Part shown: in pieces, positions 73 through 56,146 of the stretch
Layout of the letters: each line of letters begins with the position of its first letter
Numbering within the stretch: the first letter of the stretch is position 1
Assembly (NCBI GenBank): GCA_021292105.1
Contig: CM037869.1
Coordinates: 50,265,234 to 50,329,233 of the forward strand
Direction: 5' to 3'
Source of the DNA: Anadara kagoshimensis
Lineage: Eukaryota > Mollusca > Bivalvia > Arcoida > Arcidae
DNA length: 64,000 nucleotides
Made by a program: the position numbers and the translations under genes
Notes under the pieces: model-generated
Seen by the model: the letters and a program-made list of their open reading frames with translations, nothing else
Told to the model about the DNA's origin: nothing
Databases searched by the model: none

Positions 73-1364
73 CCAGTTCGGTGTACGCGTTCCGAAATCA
101 TCAATTAGTGTATTGCGGTAACAGCTGGCATTAGCTACAGCGACACCGTTCAACATCCATAAATCGCTAATGTACACATCACTTGGTCCATTTATTGACA
201 GCAGTGTTTGGTACTCCTTGTCTACAACTATTAATATAAACAAACAAGTATTAAGATTGATAAAATGTTTCTTTTATATCGAGGCGTCAACAATTTCAGA
301 TGAATTGACAACAAGCTTGGCAGAAGGTCAGTAGGCGTCGGTTACTTCCTAAGTTCCCTATGTCTTCAATTTTTAAATGCCGAGTGCTTTTCGGGAAAAA
401 GTCCCGACCTATTATCAAGTCGTGGTCCAATTCGGACGGCTTTTGAACCCGGGACCTTCCACATGCATACGAAGCGATTCCCGACCTATTCCCAAGTCGT
501 GGTCAAATTCGGACGGCTTTTAAAACTGGGACCTCCCACATACAAAGCGAGTCCCGACCTATTTTCAAGTCTTGGTCAAATCCGAACGGCTTTCGAACCC
601 GGGACCTCCCGAATACGAAGCGAGTCCCGACCTATTATCAAGTCGTGGACAAATTCGGACGGCTTTCGAACCCGGGACCTCTTTCATACGAAGCGAGTCC
701 CGACCTATTTTTAAGTCGTGGACAAATTCGGACGGCTTTCGAACCCGGGACCTCTCACATACGAAGCGAGTCCCGACCTATTTTTAAGTCGTGGACAAAT
801 TCGGACGGCTTTCGAACCCGGGACCTCCATCATACGAAGCGAGTCCCGACCTATTTTTAAGTCGTGGACAAATTCGGACGGCTTTCGAACCTGGGACCTC
901 TCACAAACGAAGCAAGCACTCTACCAACTGAGCTATAACAGTAGTAAATATTTAATAAAATAATTATTTAAAGTTAAGAAGAAAATCATCTGTAGAATAA
1001 GCCAAACATACTTTTGCTGTGCGTATTGTATACACAATAAGATGGGTGATTGGTTGAATGTTTGCTTACCGTCGCATCATCAATTAGGCAGCTATTCGAG
1101 ACGAGTATTATTTGATTATTCTATATTAATTAATCTATGAACACGTTCGTGTACATGCATGTGAAGTGAGAGAGTGCTGTATGGTCTGCCTTGTACTAGC
1201 ACGCACTCAGAGCGACTTTAACGTGCTAGCTCACAGAGTGAAAAATTCGGAAATTACATACACGCGAAAATTTGAACCTGCGAATTAAGTGCATTTACAG
1301 TATCCTTACCTGCTGTTGATCCTGGAACCGAACTAATAATATAAATCACCGCAAGAAGAAACAT
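73..1364 (-). CDS. Secreted protein of unknown function, first two exons (partial gene)
   Basis: Two exons read on the minus strand. Exon 1 (1364 down to 1310) starts with ATG and encodes MFLLAVIYIISSVPGSTA, a typical hydrophobic signal peptide, and ends at a strong donor (GTAAGG). Exon 2 (227 down to 73) follows an acceptor ending AATAG and ends at donor GTATGT. Exon 1 leaves one base over and exon 2 supplies two, so the frame joins cleanly; exon 2 ends on a codon boundary. Exon 2 includes VDKEYQTLLSING and later DLWMLNGVAVANASCYRN, with one Cys and one NAS glycosylation sequon. The gene continues left of the window. Intron 1 (228-1309) is filled by a SINE-derived tandem repeat. I do not recognise the family. 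The signal peptide, splice sites and phase match support a real gene; the product is inferred to be secreted or type I membrane. Confidence 0.5.
340..943 (-). repeat. tRNA-derived SINE with an internal 73-bp tandem array (7 units)
   Basis: The minus-strand head at 915-943 reads like a tRNA A box (TAGCTCAGTTGGTAGAG) and each unit carries a B-box-like GGTTCGAAA. Seven units begin at 403, 480, 553, 626, 699, 772 and 845; the first is 77 bp, the rest 73 bp. The body left of the array (around 378-400, GCCGAGTGCTT) matches the body of the full SINE at 59281-59630, so the array arose by amplification of the segment between SINE head and body. It lies in intron 1 of the secreted-protein gene. Confidence 0.75.
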
Positions 1365-1571
1365 TATAACAACTGTCCAAACTCTCCTCAAAACCAGTAT
1401 TCAGACATGCTCTGACTAACATACACTTAATCCTAAAGAAATTTACCGACTTCAAACACAAGACAAACTAGATCCGTATTCCCCATTGTTAAAACCCAAA
1501 TGTGAAGCTTTGATCTTTTTAATTGGTAATATACACTAGGTAGTATTGGTTACGGCTGCTAATATTCGGTA

Positions 1572-2059
1572 CAGACCTGTCGAAAGTTTAACGCTAGACT
1601 AATGAAAAAGTAGCGAATCGGCAGCTCATCTCGGCCCCTCGTTAAATACCTATATATATCTCTACAACTGCTGTATATCTGTCGGCAGCTTTTCGGTCAC
1701 TTGCCAACCATATCTAGGTCAGTCACTAACCATCCATATCTAGGCCAGTCACTAACCATCCATATCTAGGTCAGTCACTAACCATCCATATCTAGGCCAG
1801 TCACTAACCATCCATATCTAGGTCAGTCACTAACCATCCATATCTAGGTCAGTCACTAACCACCATATCTAGGTCAGTCACTAACCATCCATATCTAGGT
1901 CAGTCATTAACCATCCATATCTAGGCCAGTCACTAACCATCCATATCTAGGCCAGCCATCCATATCTAGGCTAGTCACTAACTATCCATATCTAGTCCAC
2001 TCGGAAGCCAATCTTCGACTTCGTTTCTTTAGGTCAGTGTTAAACTTTCGACAGGTCTG
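1572..2059. mobile_element. MITE with CAGACCTGTC ends and an internal 26-bp tandem array
   Basis: Inverted ends CAGACCTGTCGAAAGTTTAA and its complement TTAAACTTTCGACAGGTCTG, flanked by TA on both sides (1570-1571, 2060-2061), which fits a TA-targeting Tc1/mariner-like origin. From about 1705 to 2000 the interior is roughly twelve 25-26-bp units with core CATATCTAGGTCAGTCACTA. Related elements lie at 14903-15081, 20267-20670, 31590-31768, 36920-37323, 51353-51714, 59831-60025 and 60151-60363. Confidence 0.75.
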
Positions 2060-2065
2060 TACTGT

Positions 2066-3700
2066 AGTACTGTAGATTGTACCGTATACAGGCCATTCAA
2101 AAGGCTAAGACTAATCTAACAAATACATGCTGAATCGGTACCTCATTTCAGCCCCTCTTTAGCCATATATCGATAGCTGCTTTCTATGTCTTAGCAGTTT
2201 TTTCAGCTACTAGTTATCAACATTTCAGCCATTTTGCCGCCAAATTTTAACTCCTTTTATTTTATTTTTTTTAGTTCAGCTCAGTGATAAATTCTCGCCA
2301 GGGTTGTAATGTATAGCAATTTTTTCAAAAGTTTTTGTGTAAATAAAATTTTCAATATTTATACTGTATCAATATTTGCCATTATTTCTCTAATAAATAA
2401 TTTAAAGGGATTTTAGTATTTAGTAATGATCCCTAAATAATCGATAATTAGTACTTAAACAGGTATGTGACTGTTTCTGAACTACTCACCACTACCAATC
2501 TTTTCCAGAATTTTAGTTTATTCATTAAAATAAAAAGTGAGATCAATTAAAAAATTGATTTAATTTAAAAAATAAAACAGATATATACTCCAAAGATGAG
2601 ATTAATGAGAGATTAATAGAATCTGTCACACCTGGTGTTGTTAGAGTTCTTAATATATATTTGGTCCAGAACGAAGGTTGTCGAGTTCTGAACCAAATAT
2701 ATTAGAACAAGGGTTGAGATTTTCTTATCTGGCACTTTAAGTAGTGATTGATTCTATTCTTGCATCAGAAAGTACATTTTTTCAATTTAAAATAAATTCC
2801 AACTTATCGATACACTTCTGATTTTGTTGATAAAATTTTGCGGGAAAAACAGCGTGTAGACTATCTTGCACAGGGGGGTTACAAGATGGAGACGTCTTGC
2901 ATCTCTCTTGTTATGGATTTTTCTATCAGGGGTGCAAGAATTAATCATATAGCACAGCAGTCTGAAGACAAAAACTATTCTGTAATTGACTCATTGAGAG
3001 AAAAAAATTCTGGTTTAAAAAGAGAAATTAAATATTTTAGACCGTAAAGTTAATGTAGCGAAATTTTTGAACTGAAAGGTTGCCCCATGAGAGGCAGTAT
3101 CCTATGTTGAAAATCAGATAGATTATTTACACAAACTTATAATAAGAACACCTAGACGTTGAAATAGAATTTGTGAATAAACATCGCAATGGTCCAAATA
3201 AAACAGGAAAACCGCAGTCAATTGACATACAATGTATCTCCGGCCACGCCCACAATGTTCCGACACTGGCCGCCATCAGGTTACCAAAGCAGCGTCACGG
3301 CAACTAATGACGTTCTAGTGTCAGTAACGTCATTAAACCGCACAATTCAGGCCGAGTTTTCATTCTATTTGCGTATATTTCAAGCATGTCGACCCTTTGT
3401 CGGATGTCACTAATCGCATTGTAAAAGCTTGTTTTCAACAACGGGAAAGTACATCACGAAAAAAGTACCTATAGTTACAGCCGAAGACATCCTGCCAACT
3501 GAAAATGAACTTAGGACTAAAAAACATTAACAGTCTAAATTTCTGTTATGTGTTACAGATCAAGTTCATCTTTCATTCTACCTCACTGAGATTTGCGTTT
3601 TTACGTTAATGGTAACACTTGATTTCGTCCAATGTGTGGAAGAGTGGGGTATGTGAGGTCGCTCACAATTTTTTTCTACTCCATATTTGCTGATATTTAT
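2066..3700. other. Non-coding stretch with a diverged MITE, a hairpin and a MITE fragment
   Basis: No convincing gene. About 2083-2320 is a diverged relative of the CAGACCTGTC MITE. At 2651-2703 a near-perfect hairpin has arms built on AATATATTTGGTYCAGAAC and a loop of about 11 nt. At about 3223-3410 lies a partial copy, in opposite orientation, of the MITE at 60676-60886 (shared core GGCCACGCCCAC). The short open frames at 2838-3047 and 3189-3413 have no start context, splice sites or recognisable domain. Confidence 0.5.
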
Positions 3701-3701
3701 A

Positions 3702-3702
3702 A

Positions 3703-3754
<52 letters not shown>
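3702..3754. repeat. (CT)n microsatellite
   Basis: Nearly uninterrupted CT dinucleotides, broken once by TT. Its open frames (Arg/Glu repeats on the minus strand) are an artefact of the repeat. Confidence 0.95.
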
Positions 3755-3756
<2 letters not shown>

Positions 3757-3904
3757 GTTGCATTTACAATATTTATTATAAATATCGTTATTAAAGTCAA
3801 TGGACTGCATTTTTTAAATTTTTTTATTTTCTTCAGTCTGTTAAATAGTACGTCTGTAATCATATATGATATTTTGTGCTCCCTATTTAGCAAACCTTTA
3901 AGCC

Positions 3905-5049
3905 CAATGCGCCAGAAACAGGTCATAGTGTGATACCGCCAGAGACAGGTCATAGTGTGGATCCACCAGAGACAGGTCATAGTGTGATTCCGCCAGAGAC
4001 AGGTCATAGTGTGATTCCGCCAGAGACAGGTCATAGTGTGATTCCGCCAGACAGGTCATATAGGTGTGATTCCGCCAGACAGGTCATAGTGTGATTCCGC
4101 CAGACATGTCATAGTATGATTCCGCCAGACAGGTCATAGTGTGATTCCGCCAGAGACAGGTCATAGTGTGATTCCGCCAGAAACAGGTCATTGTGTGATT
4201 CCGCCAGAGACAGGTAATAGTGTGATTCCGCCAGAAACAGGTCACAGTGTGATACCACCAGAGACAGATCATAGTGTGATTCCGCCAGACTAGTCATAGT
4301 GTGATTCCGCCAGAGACAGGTCATAGTGTGATTCCGCCAGAGACAGGTCATAGTGCGATTCCGCCAGACTAGTCATAGTGTGATTCCGCCAGAGACAGGT
4401 CATAGTGTGATACCGCCGGAGACAGGTCATAGTGTGATACCACCAGAGACAGGTCATAGTGTGATTCCGCCAGACTAGTCATAGTGTGATACCGCCAGAG
4501 ATAGGTCATATTGTGATTCCGCCAGAGACAGGTCATAGTGTGATTCCGCCAGAGACTGGTCATAATTTGATTCGCCAGAGACAGACCATAGTGTGATTCC
4601 GCCAGAGACAGGTCATAATGTGATTCCGCCAGACAGGTCATAGTGTGATTCCGCTAGACAGGTCATAGTGTGATACCACTAGAGACAGATCATAGTGTGA
4701 TACCGCCAGAGACAGGTCACAGTGTGATTCCGCCAGAGACAGGTCATAGTGTGATTCCGCCAGACAGGCCATAGTGCGATTCCGCCAGAGACAGGTCATA
4801 GTGTGATACCGCCAGAGACAGGTCATAATGTGATACCGCCAGAGACAGATCATAGTGTGATACCGCCAGAGACAGGTCATAATGTGATACCGCCAGAGAC
4901 AGATCATAGTGTGATACCGCCAGAGACAGGTCATAGTATGATTTCGCCAGACACGTCATAGTGTGATTCTGCCAGAGACAGGTCATAGTGTGATTCCGCC
5001 AGAAACAGGTCATAATGGGATTCTGCCAGAGACAGGTCATAGTGTGATA
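3905..5049. repeat. 27-bp satellite, about 42 units
   Basis: Tandem array with consensus CCGCCAGAGACAGGTCATAG followed by TGTGATT. Some units are shortened to about 22-24 bp by loss of bases in the AGAGACAG part. Variants (ATACCGCC/ATTCCGCC, CAGAGACAG/CAGACAG) alternate in blocks, suggesting amplification of higher-order groups. The many minus-strand open frames with MTCLWRNH-like repeats come from the unit length being a multiple of three and are not taken as genes. Confidence 0.95.
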
Positions 5050-5825
5050 ACTTCTTAACCTTTTTTATTTTCAGTTTATTATACAGAAGTGTTCAAAACG
5101 ATTCAAAACAGTTTTATTATGTTCCGAATCCTTAACTTATTATTATGAACTTGCATGGCGATGAGTGTCTAGTTGCCTGCTGCGAAATGCACTTATAGGT
5201 GTCTATTGAAGATTGCATTTTGACCGACTAGATAAAAACGGATATGATAAGCAATTTGGCGAGTTCCAAATTTTTTAGTGATGGTTCTCATTCTTTAGCC
5301 ATTGGTCAGAATCTTTTATATTGTTCTTTTTATTTATATACGCATCTAAAAAACCAACCCGCACACAAACACACATGAAGTCTTCTGATCAGTCTGTGTT
5401 GTGACACACACAACTGTCCATTTTCCCATGATCTGTACAAAGGTTACACGTTTTTAAGACTTTCGATAAACATACAAACTCCAATGTCGATTCAACGTCA
5501 TACGAAACTCCGAGAGTATCGATTCGGTAATTAGATGAATGCCCCACTTATATCAATACTTCACCAGCTATATAGCTGTATGCGAAGTGACAGAAAGTTT
5601 GACCAATGGATTGCACTGAAATGAGGGTTAACGTTCTTTTATGTTCTACACCCGCGTCGACATTAGGCGTTGGTTTTTAGGTCTTAGCCAAATTACCCTG
5701 TCTGAGTTCGGACACGCGATCTTCCAAACCCGGAATGAATTCATTCCATTTAAAAAACCAAATAAACTATATAATGGAAACAGAAGCCAATTCTTCGTTA
5801 AATAAAATTGTTGTTCACATTAAAA
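5050..5825. other. Unannotated stretch
   Basis: AT-rich sequence without a convincing gene. I see no long open frame with splice signals, no tandem repeat and no clear inverted-repeat element. Confidence 0.5.
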
Positions 5826-5831
5826 ATGCAT

Positions 5832-6478
5832 TGTTACGCCACATAGCGGTGTTGCCGCATAAACGTGTTCCAACACCTCTATGTGGGGAATTTCAACGCA
5901 TATAGAGAACGCTTTAATGTGGCAAAAAGGCTACATTCCGCCGCATAAAGAAACATTTACTATCATCACCTACACCTACACCCCCATCATCATTAACACC
6001 TTCATTAAAAAACCACAACCATCACTATCATCGTGATGATCATCATTATCGTTATCATTATTATTATTAAAAGCAATGCTCGAAATTCTGCAAAAATCAC
6101 AATTTAACCATCATCAACATTACAGTCACCATCGCTTGCCGTCGTCGCCCTCTCATCGTCCCCGTCCACATCCTCCACCTCCTTCAATTATTATTACTAT
6201 TATCAACAACAGCATAAATTATCAATTGTCATCGTCATAATTAATGTCACCACCACCGTATTTGTCTAGATATTAGATCTTTTTTAAAATTCATACTAAG
6301 TTATTAAAATTAGTCCTCTTTATGCGTGGAAAAAGGCAGCCTCGCGCCGCATATAAGCAACACATCTTTATGCGTTGAACGCCGCCGCATAAACGTGGCC
6401 GACCTCTTTATGCGTTGAAATTCCCCGCATAGACGTGTTGGGCGCGTTTATGCGACAACACCGCTATGTGGCGTTACA
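5832..6478. mobile_element. Foldback/MITE element with long inverted ends
   Basis: Left end TGTTACGCCACATAGCGGTG and right end CACCGCTATGTGGCGTTACA are inverted copies with one mismatch. The similarity continues inward through short GCATAAACGTG-type motifs repeated in both arms. The flanks carry ATGCAT on each side (5826-5831, 6479-6484), a possible 6-bp target duplication, although ATGCAT is itself palindromic. The centre is rich in ATC/ATT trinucleotides. No coding capacity. Confidence 0.7.
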
Positions 6479-6830
6479 ATGCATTCATATTGTATAATTG
6501 TTCATTTGTCTTTTTTTTCACTGGATGCCTACATTCTATATCGTAAAAGTAATCTCATTCAAATGAAAGAAACAATTTTAACTTCCAAATATCGCTATAC
6601 CGGGGACTCATATTGCAGAATATCGCAAAAGGGGATTTTTTTTACGGATAAACCGAGACCTAACACGTTTTACGCAAAGGCAATTTGCGAACAAACTTCA
6701 AAATCGAAAAAGAAAATATTGTGTAGTTTGTCTAAATTTCGCAGATAATGAAAGAATTTGAATTGACGTTTAAATGCATATAAAACATTTGTAAACGAAC
6801 CCTCAGTATAACCTACACTACTTGATATCT
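6479..6830. other. Remnant of an old spacer unit
   Basis: About 6651-6810 (AACCGAGACC onward) is recognisably related to 22723-22870 and 39620-39770, the segment between the hammerhead motif and the cGLR promoter in the younger spacers. It is followed at 6827 by the ATCT target site of the next transposon. The related sequence resumes at about 10263 on the other side of that element. Confidence 0.5.
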
Positions 6831-7637
6831 TAGTCTGGTGGAAAAAAATTGAAATTTCACAATAGGGGGACACGAGTGTTCAAAGCTGGCAACATAGCTG
6901 TCTTATATCATCATATGTTAGGGGTCAAGAATCAACCTGTTGCCAAGCTGATCGACCCTTGGTTTAGTAGATAAAAGGTCAAAGGTCAGATAGTGGTTTT
7001 TCCCCAAAAATTAATCTTTGTTAGTTTATAGCTGCCCAAATATATACTTTCTGAGATTTAAATAAATCAAATAAATCTGTTCTCATGCAATCATAGCATT
7101 TCATGTATTTTAACATTGACTAGGAAGCTAATTGAGACGAGACTGTTTAGGCTAAAATTTAAATATTTCAATGTTATTTTTCAAAATTCTGACACAAGCT
7201 TCAAGATAGAATAAAATAAAAGTATACATTCAACATCAAAGCATGAATCAAAATGTTAATATATAATTCTTTTGTAAATACATGACTGTGATTAAAATAA
7301 ATATATTTTTTAAACCCAGCTAATAATTTGAAATTTATTAAAAGTTTAAAATCAAAGTACTGCAAGTACTGTAATCGGCGAGGCATAGTCACGAGAATCT
7401 CTGGAATATATCAGTCACATCTAACGATTTCTTTTCATTCATCAATATCACTATCTGTGGTATTATCATTCAAAGGGTTCAACCAATCAACGGTTTAACG
7501 GCCCCATTGCAAGTGCATACAGCCACCCACTTTCAATTGTATGCCCTACATGTACATCCTGTAGTGCAACATGATTTATATTTACATTTCAGCAATGCAT
7601 GACATGATTTTGGTAAAGGTTATTTTCTCATTAAAAC

Positions 7638-10544: not shown

Positions 10545-10830
10545 TATATAGGTAAACAGCATTGACCTGTCCGATTGACTTTTCATTTGGACTATTTATA
10601 TAAAATGATCCAATATCAAAAACATGGGTAGTTATAGGATAAAACATTGTACGTTTCTCCTCTTTTAGACAAAAGCCCCACTTATATCCCTATATATAAA
10701 TATACTAGTCCATAATAAATATTTACATTAAAGGTCAAACGGACAGGTCAATGTTGTTTGCTTATAAATACTGATAAAGATCATACCATATATTATATTA
10801 CAATCAAAATTGACATGTCCACTTGACCTA
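10545..10830. promoter_or_regulatory. AGGTCA direct-repeat modules upstream of cGLR copy 1
   Basis: Paired half-sites spaced by 7 bp: TGACCT...TGACTT near 10570 (minus orientation), AGGTCA...AGGTCA at about 10732-10750 (plus orientation), and a third, degraded pair at about 10811 that runs directly into coding sequence. Both pairs share flanks (CAACATTGACCT, GTCAATGTTG) with the modules upstream of copies 2, 3 and 4. Confidence 0.5.
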
Positions 10831-12626
10831 CAAGATAGAATTATGTCAATAGTAGCAGGACTGAGAATAATAAACAGTGGAAGTAGAGCAGAAGGACTAT
10901 CACTGCCTAGTAGTGATTTTGATACGATGTTTTTACTCGAAGAAGTGATTGTGTCAGACAATTTGGAGGATTTAGATAGTGACATAATCATTTAAACAAA
11001 TGATATTAAACCGGGTTTTGTAAAACTTCGTTGTTTACACAATCAAACATATGATATCATCAGCAATGCACTGACATGGACTCCCGAGGGTATGTTCCTA
11101 TCCAGTCTATTGTTCCGTGACTTGCATGTTAGGATAGCATCGAAAAACTACCCAGGTGCGTATGCTCACGGACCGTGTGCAACATATCAATCTGAATATA
11201 AAACCGAATACGACATGTTAATATGTTTGCCTTGTAGGTCGTGGACTAGGATAGCGTCAGAATGGATCGACAGAGTCAGCATAAAAATTGGCCATCACTA
11301 GATTTGATTCAAGATATTCTGCAAGAAGCTTGCTTATTGGTCCCTATTGGAAATCCTAATTCACAAGAGAGAGACATACAGTGGCGAATTTCTTTTTCGC
11401 TTGCTGAGAAAAAACTAGTGCTTTCTTTTAACCATACACAATTTTTGTGCTATGGTCTTTTCAAGTTATTTCTTAAACATGTTATAAATTCCAATGTGGA
11501 AATTAAGGATTTACTTTGTTCTTATTTCCTTAAGACAAGTTTATTCTATTGCATTGAGGAAGAGAACATCGTCTGGAATAAGGACAATTTTATTGACTGT
11601 TTCTGGACATGCTATAGACGTTTGATGAAGTGGGTTCGGGATGAATACTGTCCAAACTATTTTGTAAAAGATAACAACATGTTTGAGGGCAAGGTTTGTG
11701 GTAGTAAGGGGAGAGTACTGTTTGATCATTTATATAGATTGTATAACGATGGGTTAGACAGCATACTACGTATTCCCTGTTTTTCGGACTTATCTCCCTT
11801 TGTAAGGACATGGAGCATACCATCAAGTATTATAACTATTAGAAATGAATTAAGGGAATACCTTTGTGACGTAGAAACATTAAGCATACCCCCTTTGTTT
11901 GACATTGAGTTGATTGAAACAATACAAGTGAATTCCATTATTAGTTCAATGAAGCAACAATCTATCAGTTCCACGGACAGTACAATACTTACTTTAATGA
12001 TGTCTAACAACACTATGTATAACATTGTTCCATCTTTGTATAGGTATACACTAACAACAAGATCACATAAAAGTCGTTATAGACAAATCAGAGGTTTAAA
12101 ACAGTTCATTATCAATAACTGTATGTTCAACGATGTGAGTACCGGTAAGTTACTACTGGCTACTTTATGTTATCTGAGTGGACAATACAAGGAAGTGGTC
12201 ACTATTGTACAGAAAGTTCTGAAGGAGTTCAAACCTTACGTATTATATTTAGGCTTGTATATACAAATTCCTGATCATCCATACGTTGATTTAATTTGCG
12301 GTAAAGGTTTAACTTTCAATCAGAAGTTGAGACTCGGTGTTATCGCAAGAAATTTTATTTGTTGTATAAATCGCAAATTCTATCCCATAGAAATAGAAAC
12401 AGAAGTTGCACAACATTCTGATTTAAAAATAGCACATATACCACCAGTTGTGTATTGTAACGTTCTTTTGTTTCTATCATACTACCATATGGGATGTAGA
12501 GACAGAATGAGCTATACTCTGAATGAACTATATATAGCGGTACACGGAAAAAGATTTGTCGGAGTACTGGAAAGACCGTTAGCAAAAGCGTTGTTGCAAA
12601 GATGTCTGCATATTTTTGAAAACTAA
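10824..12626 (+). pseudogene. cGAS-like/Mab-21 gene copy 1, 5'-truncated, one stop, one frameshift
   Basis: Homologous to copy 4 from its residue 30 on; the first ~29 codons and start ATG are missing, replaced by promoter-module sequence. The nucleotidyltransferase motifs are visible: SGSRAEGLSLPSSDFDTMF (GS and D-x-D) and EYDMLICLPCRSW (third Asp). A TAA at 10993-10995 replaces a GAT codon of copy 4. A one-base loss near 11278 (GTCAGCAT versus GTCAGGCAT) shifts the frame. From 11279 to the stop at 12624-12626 the frame is open, covering the Mab-21 C-terminal part (WRISFSLAEKKLV, FKLFLKHVI, CFWTCYRRLMKWVRDEYCP). AATAAA overlaps the stop codon. The 3' end is type I, shared with copy 2 (KEVVTIVQKVLKEFKP). 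Intronless, as are all four copies. Confidence 0.85.
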
Positions 12627-13234
12627 ATAAAGATAACACCATGACGTGATGAACAAATTAATTTTTCAATTGTAATTAATTGATATATTTATTTTCAACA
12701 CATGTGCCATACATTTAGGTATTCTAATTTTGGATTGTGTTTCATCATTTTGATCATTATATTGGTAAATGAGTTCATTAGTGATCTAGGTCTCATTAGA
12801 GCAAAATGTAACAACAAAGTTTTTTGATTTTCATTTTAATAATATGACATCATATGGAACGTAATTTAAATATAACCAGAATTATCGTTCTTTTTAAATA
12901 GTTGAGTGTTTTATTATAGTTGTATTATACTTAACAGCAAACTGTGATCACTAATTTTCAGTTAATTTTTAAACTTGATTCGAAAAAAACAGAACCAGTT
13001 ATCATTGTTTTAGGGGATGGGTGGGTATTTTATATTAGTTGTATAGATATTTTGCATCAAAATATGACACTTATTTTGATTTAAATATTAAATTTATTCA
13101 TCTATATTGTTTGTTTTAGAAGTGGTTAATTAAGAAATAAAATTCTATTTGAGTGTATTCATTCGGTATTATGTTTTGTCAGAAACCTTATTTTCTATTT
13201 TAGAACCTTCATAAAGTTACATTTTTTGTTTGTA

Positions 13235-23184: not shown

Positions 23185-23640
23185 AACATTGACCTGTCCG
23201 TTTTACCTTTGAATTAAATAGTCATTATGGATAGGTAAATTTGGGTAATAGGGATCATGCGTGTATATTTCGTCTATATGATGTAAACACTATTCATGGA
23301 CAATGTGTATATGTATTAACAACTTACCCTAACGCTACCTATATATTGGATGGACCCTCCTATATGAATATTCCTAATGAAAGGTCAAACGGAAAGGTCA
23401 ATGTTGTTTGCCTATATATAAATATACATTCCTATTGTTTGTATCATGTATATATAGCATGATCTTTATCGATATTTTTATAAATAACAATCAACATTGA
23501 CCTGTTCGATTGACCTTTAATGTAAATATTTATTATGGATCGGTAAATTTTTGTATAGGGATGTAAGTGGGTTTTTTAGTCACAATAAAAGGTCAAAAGG
23601 ACAGGTCAATTTTGTTTGCCTATACATGTATATATCAAGT
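23185..23640. promoter_or_regulatory. Four AGGTCA direct-repeat (7-bp spaced) modules and TATA-like box of cGLR copy 2
   Basis: Half-site pairs at 23190-23208 (minus; TGACCT/TTACCT), 23382-23400 (plus), 23498-23516 (minus) and 23590-23608 (plus), all with a 7-bp spacer, alternating in orientation. The last lies about 20 bp upstream of a TATA-like stretch (TGTATATATC near 23627), itself about 115 bp upstream of the ATG at 23744. Nuclear receptors bind AGGTCA half-sites; use here is inferred. Confidence 0.5.
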
Positions 23641-23743
23641 TTAAATCATACATTGCACACAGTGAGTCGGTGTTTATTGTTAGCATTTGTAAAGTCCGTT
23701 GTACACGATTTCGGTTTGTATTTACATTCCTTTTAATTTGAAG

Positions 23744-25634
23744 ATGGAGCATATTTCAGTTACGTTATGGACCCATCTAAATATATTCTTAGGAACAGTA
23801 GAGTCAGTATTCATAAAAAGGCGAAGATTTGACTTACATGATAGCATTGTGTCAATTATGGCAGGGTTGAGGGTAATACATAGTGGAAGTAGAGCAGAAG
23901 GACTATCACTTCCTAGTAGTGATTATGATACGATGTTTTTACTCGAAGAAGTGATTGTGTCTGACAATTCAGAGGATTTTGACAGTGACATAATAATTGA
24001 TACAAATGATATTAAACCGGGTTTTGTAAAACTCCGTTGTTTACACAATCAAAGATATGATATCATCAGGAAAACAATGACACAAACTCCCGAGGGTCTG
24101 TTTCTGTCCAGTTTATCTTTCCGTGACGAAACTGTTCAGATAGTATTGAAACAATTTTCAGGTGCGACTGCTCATGGACCGTGTGCAACATTTCAAACTG
24201 AATTTAAAACCGAATACGACATCTTAATATGCTTGCCTTGTAGGTCATGGCCTCAGACAGCGTCAGAATGGATCGACAGAGTCAGACATAACAATTGGCC
24301 ATCACAAAATTTAATTCAGGATATTGTTCAAGACGGATGCCTATTGGTCCCTATTGGAAATCCTAACTCACTGGAGAGAGACATACAGTTGCGAATTTCT
24401 TTCTCACTTGCTGAACAAAAACTGGTTTATTCTTTCAACCATACACAATTTTTGTTCTATGGTCTTCTTTAGTTATTTCTTAAACATGTTATAAACTCCA
24501 ATGTCGAAATTAAGGGTTTACTCTGTTCCTATATCCTTAAAACAAGTTTATTCTATTGCATCGAGAAAGAGAACATCGTCTGGAACAAGGAGAATTTTAT
24601 TGATTGTTTTTGGACATGCTATAGACGTTTGATGAAGTGGGTTCGAGATGAATACTGTCCAAACTATTTTATAAAAGATAACATCATGTTTGAGGGTAAG
24701 GTTTGTGGTAGTAAAGGGAAAGTACTGTTTGATCATTTATATAGATTGTATAACGACGGGTTAGACAGCTTACTACTTATTCCCTGTTTTTCAGACGTAG
24801 CTTTTTATGTCAGTACAGGGGAAATGCCATCAAACAATATTTCTATAAGAAGTGAAATGGCAGAATACCTTTGTGATATAGAAATATTAAATATTTTTTT
24901 TTTCTGACATTGATTTTAATGAATCAATAAAATTAAATTCCGTAATTGGTTCTATGATGCAACAACCAATCAATTCAACTGACGGTGCAATTCTTTTTTT
25001 AGTTATGTTCAATAACACTTTGTATAACATTGTTCCATCTTTGTATAGGTATACACAAACAACAAGATCACATAAAATTCGTTATAGACAATTCAGAGAG
25101 TTAAAACAGTTCATTATTAATAACTGTATGAACGGTGATGTTGGTACCGGGAAGTTACTACTGGCTACAGTTTGTTATCTGAGTGGACAATACAAAGAAG
25201 TGGTCACTATTGTACAGAAAGTTCTGAAGGAGTTCAAGCCTTACGTATTATATATAGGATTTGATACACAATTGTCAACTCATCATCCATACATTGATTT
25301 AATTTGCAGTAAAGGTTTAACTCTGAATCAGAAGTTGAGACTCGGTGTTATTGCAAATCATTTTATTTGTTTTAGAAAACATAAATTCTATCCCCATGAA
25401 ACAGAACCTGAACTTTTACAACATTCTCATTTTCAAACAGCATATATACCACCAGTTGTGTATTGTAACGTTCTTTTGTTTCTATTGTGCTACCATTTGG
25501 AATGTAGAGAGAGAATGAGCTACACTCTAAATGAACTATATATAGCAACACATGGAGATAGATTTATCGGATCACTGGAAAAACCGTTAGCAAAAGCGTT
25601 GCTGCAAAGATGTCTGCGTATTTTTGAAAACTAA
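23744..25634 (+). pseudogene. cGAS-like/Mab-21 gene copy 2, one stop and one frameshift
   Basis: ATG at 23744 (MEHISVTLW), as in copies 3 and 4. GS and D-x-D are intact (SGSRAEGLSLPSSDYDTMF) as is the third Asp (EYDILICLPCRSW). A TAG at 24470-24472 replaces the AAG of copies 3 and 4 after residue 242, so a translated product would stop just after the N-terminal catalytic lobe. The frame then continues to about 24900, where a T-run (ATATTTTTTTTTTC) shifts it; it is open again from about 24910 to the stop at 25632-25634. Without these two lesions the gene would be full length. Type I 3' end shared with copy 1. Amino-acid differences from the other copies cluster in DETVQIVLKQFSGATAHG. Confidence 0.9.
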
Positions 25635-25957
25635 AGAAAGATAACACCATGACATGATGAACAAAATAATTTTTCAATTGTAATTAATTGATATATTTAT
25701 TTTCAACACATGTGCCATACATTTAGGTATTCTAATTTTGGATTGTGTTTCATCATTTTGATCATTATATTGGTAAATGAGTTCATTAGTCAGCTAGGTC
25801 TCATTAGAGCAAAATGTGACAACAAAGTTATTTAATTTTCATTTTAATAATATGACATCATATGGAACGTAATTTATAACCAGAGTTATCGTTCTTTTTT
25901 AAATAGTTGAGTGTTTTATTATAGTTGTATTATACTTAACAGCAAACTGTGATCACT

Positions 25958-40835: not shown

Positions 40836-42361
40836 TGTATATATCAAGTTTAAATCATAAGTGTACACAGTTAGTCAGTGTGTAGTTTTAGCATTTGTAA
40901 CGTCCGCTGTACACGATTTCGGTTTGTATTTACATTTGTAAAGAAATTCCTTTTAATTTCAAGATGGAGCATATTTCAGCTATGTTATGGACCCGTCTTA
41001 GCATATTCCTTGGAACAGTAGAGTCAGTATTTATCAGAAGGCAGAGATATGACCTATTTGGTAGTATTGTGTCTATGATAACAGGCTTCAGGGTAATAAC
41101 CAGTGGAAGTAGAGCAGAAGGACTATCACTGCCTAGTAGTGATTATGATACGATGTTTTTACTCGAAAAAGTGATTGTGTCTGACAATGTAGAGGATTTG
41201 GACAGTGACATTATCGTTGAAACAAATGATATTAAACCTGGTTTTGTAAAACTTCGTTGTTTAAACAATCAAAGAAATCTTATCAGGAATGCAATGACAC
41301 GGACTCTCGAGGGCATGTTTCTATCCAGTGTATTGTTCCGTGACTTAACTGTTCAGCTGGTATCGAAAAATTTCCCAGGTGCGTATGCTCATGGACCGTG
41401 TGCAACATTTCAATCTAAATGTAAAATAGAATACGACATCTTATTATGTTTGCCTTGTAGGTCGTGGCCTCGGATAGCGTCAGAATGGATCGACAGAGTC
41501 AGGCATAATAATTGGCCATCACCAGATTTGATTCAAGATATTGTACAAGAAGCTTGCTTATTAGTCCCTATTGGAAATTCTTACTCACAGGAGAGAGATT
41601 TACAGTGGCGAATTTCCTTCTCACTTGCTGAGAAAAAACTAGTCCATTCTTTTAACCATACACAATTTTTGTGCTATGGTCTTCTCAAGTTATTTCTGAA
41701 ACATCTTATAAATTCCAATGTGGAAATTAAGAATTTACTCTGTTCTTATTTCATCAAAACAAGTTTATTCTATTGCATTGAGGAAGAGAACATCGTCTGG
41801 AATAAGGAGAATTTTATTGATTGTTTTTGGACATGCTATAGACGATTAATGAAGTGGGTTCGGGATGAATACTGTCCGAACTATTTTATAAAAGATAACA
41901 ACATGTTTGAGGGCAAGGTTTGTGGTAGTAAGGGAAGAGTACTGTTTGATCATTTGTTCAGGTTGTATAACGACGGGTTAGACAGCTTACTACTTATTCC
42001 GTGCTTTTCAGGCTTATCTTCTTTTGTAAGGACAGGGAACATACCAACAAACATTACATATATTAGGCATGAATTGAGAGAATACCTTTGTGATGTAGAG
42101 ATAATAATTTTAGATTTAGCTCTTAGTAATATTGAATTTCATGAATCAATAAAATTTAATTCCATAATTGGTTCTATGATGCAACAATCTATCAGTTCAA
42201 CGGACAGTACAATACTTACTTTAATGATGTCTGATAACACTATGTATAACATTGTTCCATTTTTGTATAGGTATACACAAACAACAAGATCACATAAAAA
42301 TCGATATAGACACATCAGAGGGTTAAAACAGTTCGTAATAAATAAATGTATGGTCAGTGAT

Positions 42362-45300
42362 CACAGCTGTTATATACAGTACACTTTAGTTACAGCAGCA
42401 GTAAGAAAAATGTAGGTCAATCTTATCTACAGTGTGTTACTAGGTGCACTCATGAATATTATAATGAGGTCAGAGATGGCGACTTAAGAATGCCACCTCA
42501 TGTTTTTCAAAAAATAAATAAAAATACTAATCAACTGAAATTTGAAGTGACCATGCATCTTTTATTATGTTTTAACATTATATAATAATATCCATCATTA
42601 AATTTGCCCAAAGTAACAAAAATAATCACAAACATAGAGACAAATACCTGTAAGTGTTGGTAAAATGAGGGTCCACTTGGGATTGAATAATGATGACTTT
42701 TAAAAAATAAAATAAAATATTTTGCAACTTTTAAATTATATTTGAAATATATCATGTAAAACTTCACACTTTCAACTATATAGTACAACAATTCATTTGT
42801 ATTGGGCACTTAAATTATTTTTGAACAAACACATTTAAAAGTATATATAAACCATAATACCGTTCATTGTTGAACCATATTCTATGTAATATTAACTAAA
42901 TTAAAAACAATATAAATTATATATAGCTTTTATATCCAAGTACATTTAGTATTAATTTGGATAACCAGACTGTAAAACAAAATATTTAGATGATACATAC
43001 ACAAATATATATCAAATTATTGTAATCTTTTCCTTTTTATTTGGGGTATCTCTGACTGAATTTCAGGGGATGTTTTCAGGAGATTCTTCAAAAATGGATG
43101 ATTCTCTTTTAAGTGGCTGCCGAATGCCAGAGTGGGTTTTAGATAGTTGGTTAAATTCTTTATGAATTGATTCTCCACCTTGTTCTCCAAAATACCCAAA
43201 ACCAAAGTGCCAGTCGGAAAGCCATTGCATTATATGATCTTCTAATAAATGTTGCTTTAAAATGATTCTAATTCTAGGAAATTTAGCCGAAAATAGTTCA
43301 AGTACCTACTAATTAATTTATCTATTTCTTGTATCTCTTTATCTTCAATATATCTATCATGTGAAATTTTCAAATGAATATATCTAAAACGGTAAACAAT
43401 TCCTGAAATTTACATTTAATCCCAAATGCCTTAGCAATTATTGTATTGTCAGATGTTACTCAACTGTTTTGCTTACTACACTATTACAGATAGATGTGTA
43501 TGTACCAACTTCTAAATATTTGTTACAATGATTTCCAACAAAACTTTTCCCATGATATGCTTGACGTTGGATTCCATGTGACTTCAATACATCATCAAGA
43601 TTTTTTGCCAATGGTCCTGAACCTTTTTCAAGTTTTGCATCTTCTTGAATGGCCTCAATTTCTTTCTTTAATGTTTCAATTTTATCCCGAAGTGTTCGTT
43701 TTTTTCTAATTGTTTTATTTAAAATGCTTAAAGAACAGTTATTCGTATCTAAGTCATCAATTTGTGACTTAAGATTTTGAATTTTAATTTCAATTTTTTT
43801 TGCTTTTCGCAGTTTTTGTACATATGTATCAAAAAGTTGTTCAGACAGATGCCCTTGACGTTTCGCTTTTTCATTTGCAATTTCTAAATCAAGTCCATGA
43901 CATTCAGCCTCAAGCAGATCATGGTGTTTTTTAACTACTCCAAGTAAAATATGTAAATATGGTAGACAAATTTGATTCAAAGGGACAGGTAATATTCTAG
44001 ATCTGATAACGTTATAAAAATTTCTTTGATTCTTAAGATTACCTTTCCCTTTGTTCATAAAAGCGTTGTAATTTCTTTTCATTTGTAAGATTGTTCTTTT
44101 TTTAGCTAGAGTACGGTTACTCTTTTTAATTTGAATGTTATTTCTATCTATTTGACAAAATACATGGATATTTACCACTAGCTCCGGCAATACCCTGCAC
44201 TTTTGATAAAAAATCATAATCACCAAATAAGAAAACCCTAAATTTTTGCCTCTCCAGTTAGAATTTTGAAGTTCTTTAATTTGCTTTGCATATTTACTAA
44301 GACCTATTGTCAAGTTTTTGCTGAATCAGGTGCCAAAAAATAACAAAAAACAATTGTATTTTGTACTGAATTTGGATGTCGGAGATTACCTATTTGAAAA
44401 CACATTTTAAAACTACCACCCCCCTTATCACCACCAATTTTAACCCATATTTCGTCCTCCGGTATTTTGTTTCCTCTCCATGTTAATAACCCAGCATTGT
44501 GGTATCTATCTAAATAATTTTTAATAAAACTTTGAAGATCTTGTACACAAATACATGGAGCTGGATGAACATGAAGACCTGCCACACTGTCTGGCGAAGT
44601 ATCATCTAAAAATTCAAAATTTATATTTTCAGCCAAATATTTATCCCCATTCCCTATCAAACTCTTCTTTTCTGATCGCTGCATACTCTCAGAAGCTTCA
44701 GTTATACCTAAAGATTTTAATAAACGCCTTAAATTTCTTTTTTGATACCATGTAAGACCAACATGTGACTTTATTGCCAATCCCATCCGTTTGTTAATTT
44801 TTCCAACTTCTTTGATGCCTGCATTTTTAAAAATTTGTTGTTTCAGTTGTTTTGGTGTGTACTTAAGTTCTGATGATTGCTGTAAAGTTGTAGATTCATT
44901 GTCAGACCCGCTAACAATGGATCTAACAACTTTGATTTCCCTCGCCCTTTTCTTTTTAAGTGGGGATCTGGCGGTTGATGTTGATTTCCTAGCTTTCGTT
45001 ATAGGTGTTAAATGTATTGGCTGAAATAAAATTAAAACAGTACATGTATTAGTTTTTTTTTTATAAAAGTAAGTGTTGTGTTAAATATCCGAAATAAGTA
45101 ATTCAAACAAAGTTAAATTGGAAAATCAAGACGCGAATTTGTTAATCTGCTTAATAATTAAATGTAAATTTTATACCTGTCCCCCTGTCTTTGCTTTGAT
45201 CAGTTGTCCCTGTGCTGCATGCAGCTTTCGCTTTAGTGTATGTGTGAAAAGTTTTTCTTCTGTTTGTGTGAGTGGTGCATCTATTGGCTTTTCTAAAATT

Positions 45301-47081
45301 TCTTCAAGAGGATTTTCTAAAATATTTGGAACTGGAACTTGCTGTTGTTGGACATGTTGTTGTTCTTCAACTTGGTACTGGATTTGCTGTTGTTGCTGCT
45401 GAACCGGTTGTTGTTGTTGATAATGATGTTGATGCTGTTCTGGTCGTTGTTGTTGTTGTTGTTGGCAATTTGTATTCTTGTCTTTAGAATTTGGGTTTCA
45501 ATGTGCCTTCGTCACATATAGGTCTTACATGTACAGGTTTAGCCAAAAGTTGCCGTAGTGTGAGAGGTGGGGAAACATTTAGAGAGAGGAGGTTGCTTGT
45601 TATACATGTATGGTCATGAATCCTCTCCAGAGGACCTTTAAAATGGCATATTTTACATTTAACATCTAAACTCTAAAACCTGATTTCTAAATTTTAAATC
45701 AATAAACATAGATGACAATGAAATATCTGTTCTACAACAAGGGCATTTAGCTTCAGATTCAGAAGTCTGAACTGACAACTGTCGTTGTAGACATTTGCGC
45801 AAAATACATGCTCACATGAAGTCCTCACAGACTGTGGTGAATAAATATCATGACATATTGCACAATAAAATGTTGTTTCTGATTATTATTAAATCCAATA
45901 ATTTCATATCTCTCTGTATTTATGTTTGGAAAACGGTTAAGATCTGGCAACATTTCAAAAATATTTACACTATTGTTGATACATAATTTTTTAATATTGG
46001 TCTCCCACCTTTACACTGTTCTTTAAAAATTGAACAAACATGACATTCATTTAAAGAAATTTCAGAATTATAGGATTTTTTCCAAAAATTGTCATTATTA
46101 TATTGAATAGTATTACGAAATTTATCATATGATGATGAATCCTGTAACTTTCGTCTTACAGTTGTTTTTATAAAATTATAGCATTTTGTACATATAATGT
46201 CAGAATGTGCACTAGGTTTGTCTGTAACAACATCTATTTGAAAAATATCAAATATCTGCTGTTTTTGTGCATAACTTTTATGAATGATATTATTTCTTTT
46301 TTCTTTTCTTGTTTGTGCTCTAGACAAACAAAGTCTACACAATTCTGATACATTTTTATTATGCTTTTCAATAGAATGGTCAAGTATCTCCATTATAGAA
46401 ATAAATAGCTAAATAAAGTTAAAACTGACAAAAAATTAATAAAAAATAAAAACTTAATTAATAAAATTGATTGCTATGATGTATCTAATTATATTAATAT
46501 AATTAACAAGCAATACACAAGCTTGTTATGTAATACTAAAATATTACATGTACATATGGTTGAATAAAACTACATACGGTACCTAAGTTAAGAAGTTCTA
46601 CAAATTCCCCTCTTAGTGCCCCAAAAATATCACACTGATTAAACAGTCAAGCAACCTCCTCTCTCATGGATAACACATGCAATATGATAGAAAAACTTGC
46701 AAAATTAGTTTTTTTGACCTTTTAATTTACCATTACATTCTTTAAATGATTAATGACATTGTCCTCATGTTTATCTCATTATTTTCGGTTTTAAACACAA
46801 AAACTGTGACTTTAATTAACACGTGTTGAAAGATTTACTTATTTGGGTCATGATTTGACCTGACAGCCTGATATAACAGTGCAAATGTGATAAAAATAGT
46901 TTTAGGAAAGACCAAACATGCTTCTAAAGCTAGTTAGGTTGCGTCCTTAGAGACAAGCGTCTGCGCATGCTCAGCATGATGCATCATCCAAGAGCTGATA
47001 ACAGTGGAGTGTGACCTACATTCTACTGATAACAGCAGCTTAACTAAATGTTACTGTATATATAGTGTACAAACAGCTGTG
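42362..47081 (-). mobile_element. RAG1-N-terminal/Chapaev-like DNA transposon (4.72 kb)
   Basis: Ends CACAGCTGTT (left) and AACAGCTGTG (right) with further inverted similarity (ACAGTA.CA..TTTAGTTA). The target duplication is TGAT at 42358-42361 and 47082-47085; a 5-bp GTGAT reading is possible if one end base is lost. The empty site is seen in copy 4 (GTCAGTGATGTGAGTACC). The CAC start and 4-bp duplication fit the Chapaev (CMC) group, and the RSS-like end plus RAG1-N-terminal-like protein fit the N-RAG-TP type described from Aplysia. The transposase gene runs antisense to the cGLR. Confidence 0.8.
43020..46393 (-). pseudogene. Decayed transposase with RAG1-like N-terminal zinc modules and DDE core
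   Basis: Minus strand. ATG at 46391-46393. N-terminal module: ELCRLCLSRAQ, FQIDVVTDKPSAHSDIICTKC, NECHVC and CKGGRP, the Cys/His layout of the RAG1 N-terminal region. About 45975-45880 has VNIFEMLPDLNRFPN. RING finger at 45880-45705: CAICHD, TSCEHVFC, then in another frame CPCCRTDI. A further zinc motif CKICHF...RIHDHTC at 45655-45600. Gln-rich stretch 45475-45340, then donor CAG|GTATAA (45177/45176) and acceptor TTTATTTCAG (before 45020), in phase. Transposase core: first Asp in KIGGDKGGGSFK (near 44429), second Asp in VFLFGDYDFLSKVQG (near 44215), Glu in FGYFGEQGGESIHKEFN (43160-43200). About eight frame changes separate these blocks, so it is inactive. Homology is by recognition, not by search. 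Confidence 0.75.
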
Positions 47082-47580
47082 TGATGTGAGTACCGGAAGG
47101 TTACTACTAGCTACGTTATGTTATCTTAGTGGACAATACAACGAAATGGTCACTTTTGTACACGACGCTCTGGAGAAATTAAAATCTACCATGTTATATT
47201 TAGGCAAGGATATACAATTGTCAACACATCATCCATACATTGATATAATTTGCGGTAAAAGTTTAACGCTGAATCAAAAGCTGAGACTCGGTGTTATTGC
47301 AAGACCTTCTGTTTGCATTTTAAAACATAAATTCTATCCTCTTGAAATAGAAACAGATCTTGTAGAACATTCTAATTTAAAAACAGCATATATACCACCA
47401 GTTGTGTATTATAACGTTCTTTTGTTTCTATCATACCACCATATGGGATGTAGAGACAAAATGAGCTACTCTCTGAATGAGTTATATATAGCAGTGCACG
47501 GTGACAGATTCATCGAAGAACTGGAAAGACCGTTAGCAAACGCGTTGTTGCAGAGATGTCTGTACATTTTTGATAACTAA

Positions 47581-54133: not shown

Positions 54134-54250
54134 TATAAAGTTTAAATCATACATTGCACACAGTGAGTCGGTGTTTATTGTTAGCATTTGTAAAGTCCGT
54201 TGTACACTATTTCGGTTTGTACATGTATTTATATTCCTTTTAATTTGAAG

Positions 54251-56146
54251 ATGGAGCATATTTCAGTTATGTTATGGACCCGTCTAAACATATTCCTAGG
54301 AACAGTAGAGTCAGTATTGATAAGTAGGCGAAGATTTGACTTAGATGATAGCATTGCGTCAATTATGGCAGGGATGAGGGTAATACATAGTGGAAGTAGA
54401 GCAGAAGGACTATCACTTTCTAGTAGTGATTTTGATATTATGTTTTCAATCGAAGAAGTGATTGTGTCTGACAATTCAGAGGATTTGGATAGTGACATAA
54501 TCATTGATACAAATGATATTAAACCGGGTTTTGTAAAACTTCGTTGTTTACACAATCAAAGATATGATATCATCAGGAATGCAATGACACAAACCCCCGA
54601 GGGTCTGTTTCTGTCCAGTGTATCTTTCCGTGACTTGCATGTTCAGAGAGCATCGAAAATCTGCCCAGGTGCATATGCTCACGGACCGTGTGCAACATTT
54701 CAATCTGAATTTAAAACCGAATACGACATCTTAAGATGTTTGCCTTGTAGGTCGTGGCCTCGGATAGCGTCAGAATGGATCGACAGAGTCAGGCATAATA
54801 ATTGGCCATCATCAGCTTTGATTCAAGATATTGTGCAAGAAGCGTGCTTATTGGTCCCTATTGGAAATCCTCACTCACAGGAGAGAGACATACAGTGGCG
54901 AATTTCCTTCTCACTTGCTGAGAAAAAACTAGTCCGTTCTTTTAACCATACGCAATTTTTGTGCTATGGTCTTCTCAAGTTATTTCTAAAACATCTTATA
55001 AATTCCAATGTGGAAATTAAGGATTTACTCTGTTCTTATTTCCTAAAAACAAGTTTATTCTATTGCATCGAGGAAGAGAACATCGTCTGGAACAAGGAGA
55101 ATTTCATTGATTGTTTTTGGACATGCTATAGACGATTAATGAAGTGGGTTCGGGATGAATACTGTCCGAACTATTTTATAAAAGATAACAACATGTTTGA
55201 GGGCAAGGTTTGTGGTAGTAAGGGAAGAGAACTGATTGATCATTTGTTTAGGTTGTATAACGACGGGTTAGACAGCTTACTACTTATTCCGTGCTTTTCA
55301 GGCTTATCTTCTTTTGTAAGGACAGGGAACGTACCATCAAACATTATAGCTATTATGCATGAATTGAGAGAATACCTTTGTGATGCAGAAACACTAATTT
55401 TAGATTTAGCCATTAGTAATATTGAATTTCATGAATCAATAGAATTTAATTCCATTATTAGTTCTATGATGCAACAATCAATGAATTTCACGGACAGTAC
55501 ACTACTTACATTAATGATGTCTTTTAACCTTATGCATAACATTGTTCCATTTTTGTATAGATATATACAAACAACAAGATCACATAAAAGTCGTTATAGA
55601 CAAATCAGAGGTTTAAAACAGTTCATTATTAATAACTGTATGGTCAGTGATGTGAGTACCGGAAGGTTACTACTGGCTACGTTATGTTATCTGAGTGGAC
55701 AATACAATGAAATGGTCACTTTTGTACACGACGCTCTGGAGAAATTAAAATCTACCATGTTATATTTAGGCAAGAATATACTATTGTCAACACATCATCC
55801 ATACATTGATTTAATTTGTGGTAAAGGATTAACACTGAATCAGAAGCTGAGACTCGGTGTTATTGCAAGACCTTTTATTTGTTTTATAAAACAGAAATTC
55901 TATCCACATGAAATAGAAACAGAACTTTTACAACAATCTGATTTAGGAACAGCATATATACCACCAGTTGTGTATTGTAATGTTCTTTTGTTTCTATCAT
56001 ACTACCATTTGGGATGTAGAGAGAGAATGTGCTACACTCTAAATGAACTATATATAGCAGTACAGGGAGACAGATTCATCAGAGAACTGGAAAGACCGTT
56101 AGCAAACGCGTTGTTGCAGAGATGTCTGTACATTTTTGATAACTAA
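54251..56146 (+). CDS. cGAS-like receptor / Mab-21 domain nucleotidyltransferase, copy 4 (intact)
   Basis: 631 residues, intronless, starting at the ATG (MEHISVMLW) conserved in copies 2 and 3; in-frame codons upstream lack an ATG. The nucleotidyltransferase lobe shows SGSRAEGLSLSSSDFDIMF: G48-S49, acidic pair D60 and D62; the third acid is D159 in EYDILRCLPCRSW. The Mab-21 C-terminal part follows with WRISFSLAEKKLV (216-228), NHTQFLCYGLLKLFLKHLI, a SYFLKTSLFYCIEEENIVW segment and CFWTCYRRLMKWVRDEYCP. The last ~170 residues are helical and repeat-like. In this family the enzyme senses a ligand, often double-stranded RNA, and makes a cyclic dinucleotide for STING signalling. The complete triad suggests activity; ligand and product cannot be told from sequence. 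I see no cGAS-type H...CC...C zinc thumb. It is the only unbroken member of the cluster. Confidence 0.9.
   Translation: MEHISVMLWTRLNIFLGTVESVLISRRRFDLDDSIASIMAGMRVIHSGSRAEGLSLSSSDFDIMFSIEEVIVSDNSEDLDSDIIIDTNDIKPGFVKLRCLHNQRYDIIRNAMTQTPEGLFLSSVSFRDLHVQRASKICPGAYAHGPCATFQSEFKTEYDILRCLPCRSWPRIASEWIDRVRHNNWPSSALIQDIVQEACLLVPIGNPHSQERDIQWRISFSLAEKKLVRSFNHTQFLCYGLLKLFLKHLINSNVEIKDLLCSYFLKTSLFYCIEEENIVWNKENFIDCFWTCYRRLMKWVRDEYCPNYFIKDNNMFEGKVCGSKGRELIDHLFRLYNDGLDSLLLIPCFSGLSSFVRTGNVPSNIIAIMHELREYLCDAETLILDLAISNIEFHESIEFNSIISSMMQQSMNFTDSTLLTLMMSFNLMHNIVPFLYRYIQTTRSHKSRYRQIRGLKQFIINNCMVSDVSTGRLLLATLCYLSGQYNEMVTFVHDALEKLKSTMLYLGKNILLSTHHPYIDLICGKGLTLNQKLRLGVIARPFICFIKQKFYPHEIETELLQQSDLGTAYIPPVVYCNVLLFLSYYHLGCRERMCYTLNELYIAVQGDRFIRELERPLANALLQRCLYIFDN

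Follow-up and report, generated by a model that had tools for sequence, protein, structure and literature searches.

Chapaev transposons with a Chapa domain and a RING were reportedly described by Kapitonov and Jurka in 2007, and the transposon N-RAG-TP of Aplysia is said to have been described by Panchin and Moroz in 2008. Chapa corresponds to a truncated version of the RAG1 N-terminal part, and two subgroups of Chapaev have a RING after it, an arrangement shared with RAG1; losses of the Chapa, RING and C2H2 domains have been inferred in different clades (PMC4411706). The same paper draws the Transib superfamily widely enough to take in Chapaev as a distant clade, gives a 5-base-pair (bp) target-site duplication as typical of Transibs, and views the non-core part of RAG1 as ancestral to the Transib/Chapaev assemblage. 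PMC4079192 places Chapaev in CMC and gives as its hallmarks a 3-4-bp duplication, CAC...GTG termini, a DDE core and the motifs C(2)C, LH and H(4)H. In PMC8355894, the non-core part of RAG1 is regarded as gained by recombination with another transposon, N-RAG-TP. Here we describe an element in a 64,000-nucleotide stretch of the bivalve Anadara kagoshimensis (GCA_021292105.1, contig CM037869.1, positions 50,265,234 to 50,329,233; "the window", whose coordinates are used below). It is very probably a fossil cut-and-paste transposon of the Chapaev kind, whose broken transposase had a RAG1-related Chapa domain, a RING, possibly a further zinc finger, and a DDE core of the DUF1280 type.

The element is a DNA transposon of 4,720 bp, exactly bounded at 42362-47081. 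It interrupts one member of a tandem set of four Mab-21/cGAS-like genes (PF03281, E 1.3e-11; PF20266, E 7.3e-13). Both ends open with CACAGCTGT, and TGAT lies directly outside each; the left end reads CACAGCTGTTATATACAG at 42362 and the right end, as reverse complement, CACAGCTGTTTGTACACT at 47081. The terminal 75 bases align left against right with a score of 47, compared with 13.6 +/- 2.3 (maximum 30) in 2000 shuffles, the two stretches differing slightly in length near the tip. The octamer CACAGCTG is not rare by itself, with five occurrences on both strands of the window, and the rest of the window has a single 54-base match to the element. With the flanks joined, the interrupted gene (copy 3) and copy 4 share 91% identity across 877 columns; through the insertion site copy 3 is 82% identical to copy 2 and 84% to copy 1. 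The site is empty in all three other gene copies of the window, and copy 4 carries one TGAT there. A first-pass annotation of this DNA, made from the sequence alone, had named the TGAT duplication and taken the empty site in copy 4 to fix the ends, and both statements hold.

The same annotation described the ends as resembling recombination signal sequences. The V(D)J recombination signal has the heptamer CACAGTG and the nonamer ACAAAAACC, spaced by 12 or 23 bases. The heptamer of the element ends agrees with CACAGTG in five of seven bases, and no nonamer stands at 12- or 23-base spacing (3/9 and 5/9 on the left, 2/9 and 4/9 on the right). The likeness stops at CACAG; the description was overstated, and the ends were rejected as recombination signals.

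The transposase gene is read on the minus strand from ~46393 to 43020, in coding pieces that alternate among three frames, with about nine frame changes (counted by eye) between stretches of one protein. Its domains follow in the order of a CRLC/FQIDV...H...CTKC/CHVC...CKGGRP domain, a C3HC4 RING, a CKICH...HDHTC motif, a glutamine-rich linker, and a core with GGDKGGGSFK, FGDYDF, HLLEDH and GEQGGESIH in succession. That one decayed gene combines zinc modules, a RING and a DDE core had been claimed before, and the motifs named for them were all read on this strand.

The N-terminal piece has as its top Pfam match PF12560 (RAG1 importin binding, E 0.006, 16.6 bits) and as its top PDB match a RAG1 chain (21wb_A). 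Against mouse RAG1 residues 99-238 it scores 71, compared with 28.7 +/- 4.9 in composition-preserving shuffles, none of 2000 reaching that score (maximum 61); its scores with two RINGs, those of RAG1 and BRCA1, are at background (z 1.2-1.3). The third cysteine pair, CHVC...CKGGRP, falls outside the pairwise alignment with RAG1; it aligns with a RAG1-N-like unit elsewhere in the genome (in L015, described below), at a score equalled by 10 of 2000 shuffles. An AlphaFold model predicted without an alignment was uninformative, with a mean predicted local distance difference test score of 35.9. These comparisons give good evidence, short of profile-level proof, that the N-terminal piece and the RAG1 N-terminus are of common descent, as had been proposed; the profile comparison bears the proposal out in rank, PF12560 standing first, and falls short in score.

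The RING read through its frame change stays below the Pfam cut-offs, and its first piece alone exceeds that of zf-C3HC4. It scores 82 with the RING of RAG1 and 91 with that of BRCA1, each beyond all 1000 shuffles; because the RINGs of RAG1 and BRCA1 also score 110 with each other, the three share one general type. A PDB search with the RING gave nine sequences at E up to 10, BRCA1 at the top and RAG1 absent among them. Judged from sequence, the finger is supported as a RING but not as the RING of RAG1 in particular, RAG1 being missing from the PDB matches and outscored by BRCA1. The RING finger named in the first-pass annotation stands. The RING and second zinc motif read through together score 89 with RAG1, compared with 34.7 +/- 6.6, and none of 2000 shuffles reaches this. 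The second motif occupies the place expected from the RAG1 order. Taken by itself it does not stand out against RAG1, its score being equalled in 162 of 2000 shuffles, and Pfam gives no hit to it at E up to 1; a likeness to RAG1 is not supported from this motif alone.

The core belongs to PF06918 (DUF1280, E 3.6e-17). With the core of another DUF1280-type transposase of this genome (L019, described below) it aligns along its whole length and scores 306, compared with 42.9 +/- 5.5 in 500 shuffles, the two D residues, the PC of C(2)C and the E being aligned. The read-through core has no match to PF12940 (RAG1 core) at E up to 1, and a PDB search with the core at E up to 10 gave no RAG1 or Transib chain and one match, to an unrelated protein; by sequence, then, no likeness to the RAG1 core was found. 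The separation from Transib drawn in the first-pass annotation is borne out to this extent.

Besides the DDE core, the element shows three of the Chapaev hallmarks given in PMC4079192: its 4-bp duplication lies within the 3-4-bp range, its termini CACAGCTG...CAGCTGTG are of the CAC...GTG type, and H(4)H precedes the E as QHLLEDH (also in the genomic fragment L010; only the second H aligns in L019). In the core itself GGDKGGG, FGDYDF and GEQGGES stand in order and aligned with L019, in a core matching DUF1280, and would be catalytic. For C(2)C, PC follows the second D before a frame change, and L019 has PCLWC; for LH, LPYLHILL is plausibly placed, this being a two-letter motif unmatched in L019. 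A Chapa (RAG1-N) domain, as PMC4411706 describes it, followed by a RING is present, with RAG1-N below its Pfam cut-off. The 5-bp duplication of Transib and RAG1 is absent, the element having 4 bp. The DUF1280 core, TGAT, the CAC...GTG ends and H(4)H uphold the earlier naming of a Chapaev-type element. The claim of a RAG1-type N-terminus on a non-Transib transposase holds for the N-terminus and for a core not detectably like that of RAG1 by sequence; the label "non-Transib" depends on classification, because PMC4411706 puts Chapaev in the Transib superfamily and PMC4079192 in CMC.

The enzyme would bind the CACAGCTG ends and excise the element; joining to a target whose strands were cut 4 bases apart would leave TGAT on both sides. 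If RAG1 is a guide, DNA binding, dimer formation and ubiquitin transfer may have been the roles of the N-terminal domains. Without the insert, copy 3 is an open frame of 630 codons with no stop; with the insert present, the host frame terminates after 17 codons of the element. In the two host parts that flank the insertion, copies 3 and 4 differ by 0.19 and 0.15 synonymous substitutions per site (dS), with nonsynonymous to synonymous ratios (dN/dS) of 0.42 and 0.50. Given these values and a frame without stops, the host gene shows no sign of long decay. Because it gained no frame break, compared with about nine in the transposase, the inserted copy was probably broken before arrival and mobilised by the enzyme of another copy. 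The four host-type genes lie in tandem within 46 kb of the window (copy 3 at 40964-47580; others in Table 1); copy 4 reads as a single open frame (648 codons), which copies 1 and 2 do not.

Several points count against this account of the element. The PF12560 score is under the curated cut-off of 23.3, the unrelated PF20870 is a close second (15.9 bits, cut-off 27, E 0.0089), and the PDB match to RAG1 reaches only E 0.35. The C(2)C motif is not readable whole, the duplication is checkable in the window copy only, and the Chapaev placement was drawn from hallmarks and from the domain order in print rather than from Repbase Chapaev sequences. The clean host frame could also be explained by selection on a truncated host protein or by gene conversion between paralogues. 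The weak PF12560 score, the nearness of PF20870, the PDB E value and a RING not specific to RAG1 would all suit a generic zinc domain whose cysteine pattern came to resemble RAG1 by convergence. Such convergence is improbable, however, as RAG1 tops both Pfam and PDB, no composition-keeping shuffle reaches the score while two RINGs remain at background, and PMC4411706 describes the same domain order in Chapaevs.

A N-terminus like that of RAG1 and ends opening with CACAG would also be expected of a Transib-proper or RAG1-like (ProtoRAG/TransibSU) element. This reading is already largely refuted, and we give it very little weight: the duplication is 4 bp against the 5 bp typical of Transibs (PMC4411706), the nonamer is lacking, and neither PF12940 nor the PDB connects the core to RAG1 or Transib at the thresholds given above.

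The genome, 1.1 Gb in 36 contigs, was searched for further copies of the Chapaev-kind element; match counts are lower bounds and include the window copy. Matches number at least two each for the core as DNA and as protein, at least five at four places for the N-terminal protein, and at least three for either end. Among the matches listed the window copy is the only full-length one, the others being a few fragments: L010, internally rearranged and 83-92% identical to the window copy, L011 and L012 (75-87%), L013 (86-89%, core and 3'-end pieces only) and a fifth short fragment at C13:28004490, a right-end match. The domain order of the window copy is kept in L010, L011 and L012. An accidental join, in which a RAG1-N element like N-RAG-TP landed in a Chapaev, would suit a gene broken at many points and the RAG1-N-like units that stand in arrays of their own at another locus (L015), but it is very improbable, as a single pair of ends and a single duplication enclose the whole, and the same order on one strand is seen in L010 (N-terminal domain, RING start, core end) and in L011 and L012 (N-terminal domain, RING start, second zinc motif, core start). 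A search of viral contigs for relatives gave five pattern matches, none of them confirmed.

The union of a RAG1-type N-terminus and RING with a core distant from Transib proper is confirmed here and is not new, since PMC4411706 reported Chapa followed by a RING in Chapaevs in 2015. Like the window element, those Chapaevs have a RAG1-type zinc domain ahead of a RING, on a DDE core remote from Transib proper; described Chapaevs also share the 3-4-bp duplication and CAC...GTG ends, as listed in PMC4079192. The window element, compared with them by description only, differs in being strongly decayed, with a single full-length copy among the matches. Vertebrate RAG1 has a related N-terminal domain and the same order of N-domain, RING, zinc motif and DDE core; it differs in a core without detectable sequence similarity and a RING less close to that of the element than BRCA1's is, whereas the gene described here lies in a transposon whose duplication is 4 bp long. 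N-RAG-TP of Aplysia, likened by description only, likewise has a RAG1-N-like sequence in a transposon, according to PMC8355894. No paper treating the RAG1 N-terminal domain, RING, Transib and a mollusc together was found in the literature searched; the RING fingers in PMC3630058 are those of retroelements. The window element adds one well-bounded example, with its empty site proven, to the Chapaevs with a RAG1-type N-terminus. Transposons of this sort are relevant to whether the non-core part of RAG1 is ancestral (PMC4411706) or was acquired by recombination (PMC8355894), and a single broken copy cannot decide between these views. Tentatively, and with more doubt than confidence, all three RAG1 N-terminal zinc modules (Chapa, RING, C2H2) may have sat together as a cassette on a Chapaev core of the DUF1280 type in this lineage. 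The RAG1 N-terminus in its entirety would then predate its union with the Transib core or have been swapped between cores as a unit.

Table 1. Features of the element and of its host genes, in window coordinates.
Feature	Position	Strand	Remarks
Target-site duplication TGAT, left copy	42358..42361	+	one TGAT in empty paralogue copy 4
Left terminal inverted repeat, imperfect, begins CACAGCTGT	42362..42430	+	
C-terminal core with H(4)H motif HLLEDH; GEQGGESIH contains the presumed catalytic E	43066..43302	-	aligned with L019; motifs also in L010
Insertion region, second D to E: LPYLHILL (possible LH), coiled-coil-like stretch (by eye), YHGKSFVGNHCNKYLE	43462..44151	-	
Second catalytic D (in FGDYDF); PC of C(2)C follows, motif interrupted by frame change	44153..44248	-	
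First catalytic D region, GGDKGGGSFK, DUF1280 (PF06918)	44317..45020	-	Pfam query 44313-45080
Intron GT...AG, 156 bp, frame-preserving	45021..45176	-	read by eye; splicing inferred
Glutamine-rich linker	45174..45497	-	
Second zinc motif CKICHFKGPLERIHDHTC, position of RAG1's C2H2 finger	45487..45672	-	
C3HC4 RING finger, split by frame change	45668..45882	-	first piece zf-C3HC4 22.6 bits (cut-off 21)
RAG1-type N-terminal (Chapa) domain: CRLC, FQIDV...H...CTKC, CHVC...CKGGRP	45968..46393	-	
Right terminal inverted repeat, begins CACAGCTGT on minus strand	47011..47081	-	
Target-site duplication TGAT, right copy	47082..47085	+	
Disrupted Mab-21/cGAS-like host gene (copy 3), 5' part	40964..42361	+	
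Host gene (copy 3), 3' part; in frame with 5' part once insert removed	47086..47580	+	
Paralogue (copy 1) without insert	10824..12694	+	
Paralogue (copy 2) without insert	23585..25702	+	
Uninterrupted paralogue (copy 4) with empty site	54200..56146	+	

Other loci of the genome carry related domains. L015 (G000:C3:43400000-43409900) contains at 2428-5189 a tandem array of 6.8 copies with a period of ~404 bp, whose exon-like units contain CRSC, IHPNSVC and CDLC. Two of the three frames scanned exceed the RAG1_imp_bd cut-off of 23.3 (30.1 and 25.5 bits), the third having no match, and the genome search gave no DUF1280 match there. A weak match to the L015 unit (E 6.5e-4, 30%) lies in L039 (G000:C10:30146729-30146938), inside an open frame of 737 residues in which a cysteine pair is followed by the stretch KRGRPPKRK.

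L023 (G000:C8, around 56669592-56669981) has at 1159-3378, on the minus strand, an open frame of 832 residues with GDGAK, GGDMKF, ACPWC, ELHMLM and HCLTYH. All 15 of its PDB matches are RAG1 chains (best E 2.1e-5, query residues 497-629), and it scores 29.3 bits with PF12940 (cut-off 25); by these motifs and matches it appears to be an uninterrupted transposase-like gene of RAG1/CMC type. The core of the window element aligns weakly with this frame (73, compared with 44.5 +/- 5.4, maximum 72, in 500 shuffles). The likeness of L023 to both agrees with the remote common origin of the two core kinds proposed in PMC4411706.

L019 (G000:C3:33058500-33068400; C3:33.06 Mb) has at 5214-7187 a second DUF1280-type transposase, also broken. 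It shares the core type of the window element and differs from it in having no RAG1 or RING family in six frames against Pfam at E up to 1, and in that the stretch from the second D to the E of its core contains a PHD-like finger, which scores below cut-off at E 4.5e-4. This finger is of interest given that RAG2 has a PHD finger.

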